64,000 nucleotides of DNA from Collibacillus ludicampi (lineage in GTDB: Bacteria > Bacillota > Bacilli > Tumebacillales > BOQE01), in assembly GCF_023705585.1 (NCBI RefSeq), contig NZ_BOQE01000001.1, forward strand, positions 464,501 through 528,500, written 5' to 3'. The position numbers were made by a program, and so were the translations under genes. This document shows positions 10,053-17,593 of the stretch, piece by piece; positions within the stretch are counted from its first letter, which is position 1, and the number at the start of each line of letters is the position of its first letter. A model generated the notes under the pieces. The model was not told the DNA's origin. It searched no databases and saw only the letters and a program-made list of their open reading frames with translations.

Positions 10053-10382
10053 ATGAGTTTTCTTTCTACATTAGTTCTCGATTTTACGGTGGCACTCGGG
10101 TTGATGTTAGGAGGTTCCCTCGTCGGTGCTGTCGGCGCCCTGCTCACTCATCACCCTCCTATGTACACGATGGTACGCCTCGCTGACCAATTGAAGATTT
10201 GGGCACTCGTAGCTGCACTTGGCGGTTCGATGGATACTTTAAAAGAAATCGCGGATGGGGTATTTGGGTGGAAACTATCACCCGTTGTCAAACAATTTTC
10301 CTTTTTAATGGCCGCTTTCCTCGGTAGCCAAACCGGATATCTGTTAATCAAATGGCTGGCATACGGTTATGAAGAAGGATGA
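10053..10382 (+). CDS. ytrH: sporulation membrane protein YtrH
   Basis: A 109-residue membrane protein matching YtrH, a sigma-E-controlled, mother-cell sporulation protein of Bacillus. It has hydrophobic segments at about 3-30, 45-55 and 80-98, with the family-like core LMLGGSLVGAVGALLTHHPPMY. The frame stays open upstream to 9912, but ATG 10053 is preferred because GGTGAG lies about seven bases before it and the family is about 110 residues long. Three bases separate it from ytrI. It is good evidence that the organism sporulates. Confidence 0.85.
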   Translation: MSFLSTLVLDFTVALGLMLGGSLVGAVGALLTHHPPMYTMVRLADQLKIWALVAALGGSMDTLKEIADGVFGWKLSPVVKQFSFLMAAFLGSQTGYLLIKWLAYGYEEG

Positions 10383-14489: not shown

Positions 14490-15134
14490 CTAACACTCCA
14501 TGGTTATTTTATTGCGATTTAATCGGCGATAATCTGTCGGCGTATGACCCGTTTTCTTCTTAAACAAGGTTATAAAGTAAGCTGTATTGGGAATGCCTAC
14601 TGCCAGAGAAATTTCTGTAATGGTTTTATCCGAAGTGGTAAGATACTGAATGGCTTTGGAAATTCTCGTTTGCTGGATATATTCGGCCGGGGTTATCCCT
14701 TTGATCCGTTTAAACGTACGATGCAAATGATAGGGACTGCCATGACACATGTCTGCCAATGTTTCCAGCGTTAAAGTTTCACCGTAATTCGTGTCAATGA
14801 ATTGTGTGATTTGGTCCACCCATTCTTCATCCGGCAACCGTTGTCCGGTCGGTTTGCATCGTTTGCATGGGCGAAAATTTTCCGATAGGGCCTGCTGTAC
14901 ATTTTGAAAGATGCGTACATTTTCAATTTTGGGAGGCCTGGATTTACAAGAAGGACGGCAAAAAATACCTGTCGTCTTTACGGCGTAAAAAAATTTATCA
15001 TCGTAGGACGAATCGTTGTTCACGATCGCTTGCCACATTTCGTCTGTAATACTTTCCTCACCCGTAACTACTTCATTAGCGTTCTGAGGTACCATTTGAA
15101 TATTCTCATGTTCTTGCTGTGTTTTATTCTTCAT
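14490..15134 (-). CDS. adaA: Ada-type methylphosphotriester-DNA methyltransferase / AraC regulator
   Basis: A 214-residue protein built like Bacillus AdaA. The N-terminal Ada zinc domain takes methyl groups from DNA phosphotriesters; its four Zn cysteines are seen in FCRPSCKSRPP and CKRCKPT, the first being the methyl acceptor. The C-terminal AraC helix-turn-helix (about 105-205) includes CHGSPYHLHRTFKRIKGITP. It should activate the adaptive response to DNA alkylation. ATG 15134 is preferred over the upstream in-frame 15218 because a full-length Shine-Dalgarno, GGAGGTGATCCA (15136-15147), precedes it. No adaB (O6-methylguanine methyltransferase) adjoins. Confidence 0.9.
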   Translation of the reverse strand: MKNKTQQEHENIQMVPQNANEVVTGEESITDEMWQAIVNNDSSYDDKFFYAVKTTGIFCRPSCKSRPPKIENVRIFQNVQQALSENFRPCKRCKPTGQRLPDEEWVDQITQFIDTNYGETLTLETLADMCHGSPYHLHRTFKRIKGITPAEYIQQTRISKAIQYLTTSDKTITEISLAVGIPNTAYFITLFKKKTGHTPTDYRRLNRNKITMEC

Positions 15135-15314
15135 TTGGATCACCTCCACACAAAGTATACCTTGGTAGATTGCCGCGCGTACGTTTCCACGAATATAAAA
15201 GCAAGATTTCAAAATCACACGGAATCATTTTATGTTAAACCTAAGAATGGATCGTTATGGTTATAAAAAAGGCGTTTCGTGGAAACCTTCGGCCGATACG
15301 TAGAGTGGGAGGCA

Positions 15315-15487: not shown

Positions 15488-17593
15488 TTATCGAATTTTT
15501 AATAACCGTAACCCATTCAACGTAACCAGTATGGTCGCACCCATATCAGCGAGGATTGCCAACCAGAGTGTAAGCCATCCCGGAAAAACCAAAAGGACAG
15601 CCATTAACTTCGTGATTAATGCAAACGAGATGTTTTGTTTTATGACGCGCACTGCACTGCGGCCGAGGCGAATGGTAAAAGGAAGTTTGGACAGATCGTC
15701 TGACATTAACGCGATATCCGCGGTTTCCAAGGCGATATCCGTACTCACGCCTCCCATTGCGATCCCTACCGTCGCGGAAGCAAGTGCCGGAGCATCATTC
15801 ATCCCATCCCCAATCATCGCAACTTTTCCATATTTGTCGCGCAGCTGCTTGATTTTCTCCAATTTGTTTTGCGGTAACAATTCAGCATGATATTCGTCAA
15901 CGCCAACCCGCTTGGCAATCGTAGCTGCCGTTTTGTTGTTATCGCCGGTGAGCATAATGGTTTTTTCGATACCCGCGTTTTTTAATTCACGAACAGCTTC
16001 GACGCTTTGCTCCCTGACTTGATCCGCAACCGCGATCAAGCCGAGAATCTTTTCTTTAGTTCCTAGGATCATAACAGTCTTACCCTGCTCTTGCAGCGAC
16101 GAGATCCGCTCTTCAATCAAGGAGAGATCCCCGTGAAGCTCTTCAAACAGACGAGGATTTCCGATATAGTACGTTTCCCCTCCAATTCTTCCCGAAGCGC
16201 CTTTCCCCGTGATTGCCGCGAAACCTTCTGCCGGATGCGGAGACATGTTGTTTTCTTCCGCTTTATGCACGATCGCTTTTGCCAACGGATGTTCGGACAA
16301 TTTCTCCAGTCTCGCTGCTATTTCTAGAATATCGAGCTGGTTCTTTCTGCTCACTGTTTCGATATCTGTGACGGCCGGTTCACCTTTGGTTAGCGTTCCG
16401 GTTTTATCGAATGCGATAGCTTTCAGGTTGCCCGCCTCCTCCAAAAACACGCCGCCTTTAATCAAAACACCGTTTTTCGCAGCAGAACCGATCGCGGACA
16501 CGATCGCCACCGGTGTCGAAACGATCAGCGCGCAAGGGCACGCAACAACCAGGAGAGCTAATCCTTCGTAAACCCAACGGTTCCAATCACCTCCTGAAAG
16601 TGGAGGAATTACCGTAACGGCGACCGCCAACGCCATGACAATCGGCGTATAATATTTGGCGAATGTATCTACGAACGCTTGAGAAGGCGCTCTTTCGTTT
16701 TGTGCTTCTTCCACCAAGTGAACGATTTTCGCAATCGTAGTATCTTCGACCAATTTGTTGACGCGGACTTGAATCGCGCCCTGTTGGTTGAGGCTTCCCG
16801 CGTAAACCGCGTCGCCGATGTTTTTTCCAACCGGCATGGATTCACCGGTGATCGCCGCTTCATTGATCGACGATGTTCCGTCAATGATTTCCCCATCAAT
16901 CGCGATCTTCTCTCCGGGTTTAACCAAAACGACATCGCCTACGATCAGCTCCTCGACAGGAATTTTGTATTCTTTTCCGTTACGAATGACGGTCGCCTCT
17001 TTTGGCGCGATGTCCATCAAGGAGCGAATCGATTGCCGGGCTTTCTCCATGGAATAGGATTCAAGCATCTCGCTAACAGAGAAAAGAAACGCCACGACCG
17101 CCGCTTCTTTCCATTGCCCGATGAACAACGCCCCCACGATCGCTACGCTCATAAGGACATTCATATCAAAGTTCAACCGAAGCAGATTCCGAATCCCTTT
17201 GATCGCGACGGAATATCCACCGGCAACCATTGAAATGAGCAAGAAGGTTTTGGCCGAAACACTGTTCTCTTGAAACATCAAACCGATGAGCGAGGTAATG
17301 AGAGATACGCTCGCCGTAATCGACTTGCGATTGGATTCCCAAAAGGACTTGTTCACCGTGGATTCAGGAGCCCCCACCGGATGAATGGTGACGTTCTCCA
17401 CTTTCTTGATTTCTCTTTGCAATTCATCGTCAGAGATTGCCCCGACAATCGTCAGTTTTGCTGCTGCAAAATTCAATTTTGCCTCTTTTACGCCAGGCAC
17501 CGCCTGGACATGCCGCTCCAATTTCGCGGCACAATCCGCTCAGGTCAATCCTGTTAATCGGTATTGTTTTTGAACCGCCGAGATGTCATCCAT
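15488..17593 (-). CDS. cadA: Cd/Zn-type P1B ATPase, predicted selenoprotein (UxxC metal-binding domain)
   Basis: ATP-driven efflux of Zn2+/Cd2+/Pb2+, 701 residues from ATG 17593 (AGGAGGTGATTC ribosome site). Seen: one N-terminal metal-binding domain, the CPC motif (VVACPCALIVSTP), DKTGTLT with the phosphorylated Asp, SEHPLAKAI, GDGMNDAPAL and the C-terminal ADMGAT typical of CadA/ZntA. Codon 18 is TGA (17540-17542): it reads YRLTGLT-UGA-ADCAAKLERH, so UGA stands exactly for the first Cys of GLTCADC. The stem TGCCGC/GCGGCA (17526-17531 and 17511-17516) around a nine-base loop starting with G lies eight bases downstream. Selenocysteine decoding is inferred; otherwise only a protein restarting at TTG 17521, without this motif, would be made. 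Confidence 0.8.
17511..17531 (-). promoter_or_regulatory. candidate bacterial SECIS hairpin in cadA
   Basis: A perfect 6-bp stem, TGCCGC and GCGGCA, extendable by two G-U pairs, with loop GAAATTGGA. It starts eight bases after the in-frame TGA, and the first loop G is 14 bases after it. The spacing is slightly shorter than the usual 16-37 bases for bacterial SECIS loops, so confidence is moderate. Confidence 0.55.

Follow-up and report, generated by a model that had tools for sequence, protein, structure and literature searches.

The question raised by this locus is whether a heavy-metal P-type ATPase gene with a UGA codon in place of the first cysteine of its CxxC motif is a damaged gene or encodes a selenoprotein. 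The gene is located on the minus strand of the window analysed here, a stretch of 64,000 nucleotides from Collibacillus ludicampi (contig NZ_BOQE01000001.1). From ATG 17593, which is preceded by GGAGG, the frame reads MDDISAVQKQYRLTGLT-UGA-ADCAAKLERH and ends with TAA at position 15488 (minus-strand translation). The TGA at 17542-17540 is the sole internal stop within the 701 residues, and the gene carries no other damage. The initial annotation had described an undamaged ATPase of this length with a good ribosome-binding site and a UGA exactly at the first Cys of GLTCADC, and both descriptions are confirmed. The features of the locus are listed in Table 1.

Table 1 Features of the window relevant to the selenocysteine (Sec) codons
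Feature	Position	Strand	Basis
Predicted P1B-2 type Zn/Cd/Pb ATPase gene, UGA read as Sec, 701 aa, Sec18	15488..17593	-	Translation, Pfam, TIGR01525, 4umv alignment
Ribosome-binding site region, AGGAGGTGATTCAAG ahead of ATG	17594..17608	-	Direct reading
Sec-UGA codon, first Cys of HMA CxxC (UADC)	17540..17542	-	Orthologues L025, L026, L027, L034, and L087 have UGA; L024 has UGU
Most likely bSECIS upper hairpin, CCAGGC-GGU-GCCUGG, loop start 38 nt after UGA	17493..17507	-	Pairing and covariation, shuffle p=0.025
Hairpin of the initial annotation, loop start 14 nt after UGA; possible auxiliary structure	17509..17533	-	Pairs in clade, loop G often lost
DsbA-like thioredoxin-fold selenoprotein gene, UPYC, 215 aa	19665..20312	-	Pfam DSBA 1.2e-30; TGA in relatives of the order
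Sec-UGA codon of DsbA-like gene	20274..20276	-	Frame reading
bSECIS of DsbA-like gene, AGCGGA-GGC-UCCGCU, loop start 20 nt after UGA	20245..20259	-	Folding

The encoded protein is a predicted zinc/cadmium/lead-type efflux pump of class P1B-2. It contains an HMA, an E1-E2_ATPase, and a HAD hydrolase domain in that order according to Pfam, and it was recognized by the heavy-metal P-type ATPase model TIGR01525 with 647.8 bits (cut-off 346.25). The protein can be aligned end to end with ZntA (PDB 4umv), and in this alignment Sec18 faces the first Cys of the CAAC motif, while the segments VACPCAL, SFALITKL, and LADMGATILV match the CPC motif in TM6, the lysine residue in TM7, and the Asp-x-Gly region in TM8, respectively. 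The two proteins differ at the HMA motif, which is GMDCAAC in ZntA, with Cys preceded by Asp, but GLTUADC in the window, with Sec preceded by Thr.

The genome encodes the full machinery for selenocysteine incorporation, for which the initial annotation had proposed a search: selA (618 bits), selB (391 bits, above cut-off), selD (418 bits), and a tRNA-Sec with the anticodon UCA (tRNA-SeC(tca)). In addition, each of the 14 genomes examined from the order contains selA. The selD gene (L007; G000:C1:206557-207480), which adjoins selA, is itself a selenoprotein gene with an in-frame UGA in the sequence AGUGCKIG. Among the ATPase orthologues of the same order, TGA occurs at the same codon in G002 (72% identity), G004 (63%), and G006 (62%, two copies), and in a sample from the phylum it was found in most of the best matches, which were 56-59% identical. 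The orthologue of G003 (L024; 78% identity, same order) has TGT at this position, and thus the UGA/Cys variants sought among homologues both occur at one and the same codon. This TGT in a close relative is the observation that favours a pseudogene, in which the UGA of a former Cys gene would have arisen by ordinary nonsense mutation or through a sequencing error. However, neither event can account for a UGA that recurs at the same codon across orthologues and scanned genomes. It is kept across genera and is present in many independent genomes, including named strains, with intact downstream frames, and hence is not a peculiarity of one strain accompanied by further inactivating mutations. Taken together with the Sec machinery, the UGA/Cys exchange at a single codon, and the intact gene, this argues for selenocysteine, and we consider the pseudogene explanation as practically out of the question.

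According to another explanation, translation starts internally at TTG 17521 and yields a pump devoid of the HMA metal site, with the UGA serving as a regulatory stop. An open reading frame of 677 codons does begin at this TTG, but a good ribosome-binding site is located at ATG 17593 whereas none is evident ahead of 17521, and the HMA protein sequence is conserved on both sides of the UGA in the relatives, which makes this explanation very unlikely. Termination at the UGA under low selenium is possible as a by-product. We are therefore highly confident that the UGA specifies selenocysteine at the first Cys position of the CxxC motif in a presumably soft-metal-binding HMA domain of a P1B-2 pump, decoded most likely via a hairpin whose loop starts 38 nt downstream (+38 hairpin). 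In this process, SelB and tRNA-Sec would read the codon 17542-17540 as selenocysteine, directed by CCAGGC-GGU-GCCUGG. The actual insertion of selenocysteine is what we infer from computed properties, i.e. the frame, the machinery, the conservation of the UGA, and the structure signal.

The distribution of such ATPases was surveyed with a degenerate Sec-HMA pattern in 84,980 species genomes, one genome per species. The pattern matched 89 stretches, 87 of which have an ATPase-type HMA sequence, and nearly all of the 87 either have an open frame of at least 480 codons or stop short merely because the locus ends. The matches belong to Bacillaceae, Clostridia-type Bacillota, and Actinomycetota and include Neobacillus, Mesobacillus, Rossellomorea, Virgibacillus, Sediminibacillus, Alicyclobacillus sp. 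ALC3, Thermosediminibacter, Desulfovirgula, and metagenome-assembled genomes (MAGs) of Actinomycetota. A chance match to the pattern (L098) was rejected as a member, and the assignment of L124, another HMA ATPase, to the same type is uncertain. In one of the genes (L107), the Sec motif is preceded by a further HMA domain of the Cys type (GITCMDC), resulting in tandem Cys and Sec metal-binding domains. A record titled Chryseobacterium sp. ISL-80 (L071) carries a Mesobacillus-like Sec ATPase; this assembly is probably mislabelled. The exception among the TGA-bearing matches of the phylum sample is an otherwise intact Cys-type copy (L040, G277), which has an in-frame TGA at residue 331 of its frame. 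A reading of this TGA as Sec in the membrane CPC motif was rejected: the relatives have Trp at this position, and the HMA site of L040 contains Cys. It represents a sequencing error, a mutation, or a case of read-through.

Two hairpins downstream of the UGA are candidates for the bacterial SECIS element (bSECIS). The initial annotation had pointed to a stem-loop whose loop starts 14 nt after the UGA (+14 hairpin) and had named this short distance as its weak point. The stem-loop exists, with a G as first residue of a 9-nt loop, and its spacing is indeed below the 16-nt limit of the published bSECIS model, which gives a range of 16-37 nt between UGA and loop but admits exceptions (PMC13188914). 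As bSECIS, the +38 hairpin, which had been overlooked directly downstream of it, fits better. With a 6-bp stem (model, 4-16), a 3-nt GGU loop (3-9) with G in the first two positions, and a folding energy of -9.3 kcal/mol for the hairpin alone (limit, -7.5 kcal/mol), it agrees with the canonical element and exceeds the canonical spacing by one nucleotide.

Comparative data also support the +38 hairpin. In six members of the clade, 97% of its cells are paired, compared to 22-47% in slid controls, and both sides have changed in two of the six pairs (C-G to U-A and A-U to G-C), the former by a third-position change combined with a change in the next Gly/Glu/Asp codon. The covariation score was reached by 5 of 500 shuffles, which, given six related sequences, is supportive but not conclusive. 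When synonymous codons were shuffled with the protein sequence kept, the hairpin of the window gave p=0.025, and p<0.05 was obtained for 57 of 80 Sec genes versus 2 of 23 Cys genes, counts that derive from related sequences and hence do not represent independent tests; one of the two significant Cys genes is the G003 copy. A minimum free energy fold of 70 nt favours a competing pairing that disrupts the +38 hairpin; a 50-nt fold holds both hairpins. The GGU loop resembles the loops of two elements of the same genome, GGCUCAA-GUU-UUGAGCC of selD (+33) and AGCGGA-GGC-UCCGCU of the DsbA-like gene (+20). The +14 hairpin, for its part, has a strong stem (-12.2 kcal/mol alone) besides its loop G, and 93% of its pairs are kept in the clade of the order. 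However, the loop G is replaced by C in three of the five Sec copies of this clade, a change on both sides is found in one cell only, the stem overlaps the codons of the conserved CAAK-ERH, and the structure was not seen in the other Sec lineages. Moreover, with the UGA in the A site, the +14 hairpin would be situated partly within the ribosome, whereas the +38 hairpin would be free for SelB. We therefore regard it as unlikely that selenocysteine is inserted with the +14 hairpin as operative element; this role is probably played by the +38 hairpin.

Equivalent hairpins were found in the other Sec lineages. In 49 distinct sequences, mostly from Bacillaceae, the loop G is located at +41 in a UGGAU loop, and in 23 sequences at +48 in an NGUNN loop; the +38, +41, and +48 hairpins lie in homologous coding sequence. 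The hairpin of the window thus shares with the canonical bSECIS (PMC13188914) the 6-bp stem and a small apical loop containing GG or GU, but the loop is displaced, to +38 in the window, +40/41 in Bacillaceae, and +47/48 in the Clostridia-type and actinomycetal genes, and the relatives exceed the range of 16-37 nt by about 3 to 11 nt. It is rather likely that the Sec ATPase family uses a bSECIS 38-48 nt after the UGA, that this hairpin has moved among three positions while the UGA stayed fixed, and that SelB tolerates the longer spacer. The displaced elements represent a natural series for how far SelB reaches, and searches confined to a spacing of 16-37 nt would overlook many Sec ATPase genes.

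In a quick maximum likelihood tree from which the HMA domain was left out, at least seven Sec/Cys changes were required, five of them forced by well-supported branches, with gains and losses not distinguishable. Nested within the Sec clade to which the window belongs, the Cys copy of G003 has retained the hairpin (synonymous shuffle p=0.021), suggesting a recent change from Sec to Cys. In another lineage, G324 (L157, GVDUPEC) has UGA versus Cys in G367 (L061, GIDCPEC) of the same genus group, and the Sec form, L157, has a hairpin at +29 whose loop is AGUU. A distant ATPase of G048 (L156) has the sequence GMDUPDC, i.e. Asp-Sec, and no clear hairpin. L156 and L157 are probably separate Cys/Sec switches. 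A strict rule with Thr or Ser before Sec and Asp before Cys was rejected, since Sec follows Asp in L156 and L157, and in several Cys copies the residue before the motif is Thr or Ser; the Sec-HMA pattern required Thr or Ser before the motif and is therefore unusable for counting Thr/Ser versus Asp.

With respect to function, the most probable ligand of the pair Sec18-Ala-Asp-Cys21 in the HMA domain is a soft metal, be it Cd, Zn, Pb, Hg, or Cu(I). Metal bound to Sec18/Cys21 may tune the pump, the metal preference and the regulatory effect being deduced, and the transport site itself, formed by the membrane CPC motif together with the ZntA-type Lys and Asp, would be unchanged. It is plausible, as the initial annotation had proposed, that Sec18 alters metal affinity or redox sensing. 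Selenocysteine in CxxC motifs is usually redox-active, and a gene for a Sec-containing DsbA-like protein is also present in the window. The main alternative to a metal site is accordingly a selenenylsulfide redox switch formed by Sec18 and Cys21 that gates the pump; the decoding of the UGA would not be affected by it. However, HMA folds bind metals via CxxC, and Cd/Zn-type regulators and exporters adjoin the genes of relatives, so that the redox switch is a possibility to be kept in mind but clearly less likely than metal binding by the Sec18/Cys21 pair.

In most of the Sec relatives, the ATPase gene is directly preceded by a CadC-like ArsR gene (ELCVCDV) or adjoins a CDF exporter gene, an arrangement that fits a presumed export of Cd, Zn, or Pb. 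The CadC-like gene just upstream recalls the CadA/CadC cadmium resistance operons of Bacilli. In the window, by contrast, neither a CadC-like regulator nor a CDF exporter was found among the genes adjacent to the ATPase, which stands alone beside a divergent, lipid-methyltransferase-like gene upstream and an Ada-type regulator gene downstream. The latter (14490-15218, minus strand) encodes the metal-binding and AraC domains only and lacks the methyltransferase domain.

A Sec-containing cation ATPase had been expected to be unusual by the initial annotation, but the literature has for years contained a family termed 'Cation-transporting ATPase E1-E2, UxxC' (PMC2398784; PMC5029168; PMC9312934; PMC13188914), with 32 proteins from 25 organisms (PMC5029168). 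Like the protein of the window, this family (TIGR01525/COG2217; example ABB15669.1) comprises HMA P-type ATPases with Sec at the first Cys of CxxC in Sec-decoding hosts, predicted from UGA/Cys pairs. The gene of the window shows the properties of a member, namely the TIGR01525 match, the UGA at the first Cys, the Sec machinery, and the homologues with UGA. A difference from the family as described is the SECIS loop at +38. No listing of the Bacilli order to which the window member belongs was found in the four publications. What is new is this member together with its record of exchanges between Sec and Cys and the shifted position of its SECIS, whereas the kind of gene has already been predicted in other bacteria. 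The surprise value is thus lower than initially assumed, and the aspects that merit following are the SECIS displacement and the recurrent exchange of Sec and Cys. On genome-wide evidence, a selenoprotein gene in a broad set of Gram-positive bacteria codes for a heavy-metal pump, and annotation pipelines may truncate this gene or label it as broken. Its presence in many cultured Bacillaceae provides a tractable case for what selenocysteine adds at a metal-binding versus a redox site.

A second Sec gene in the window, to which the initial annotation had referred, was likewise found. A candidate consisting of ORFs joined by the TGA at 10380 was rejected, as these look like two neighbouring genes. 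The DsbA-like gene, on the other hand, has a UPYC motif with the UGA at 20276-20274, and its bSECIS at +20 fits the published range of 16-37 nt. The single in-frame TGA also occurs in relatives of the order (66-77% identity), and one copy in G008 is without the stop.
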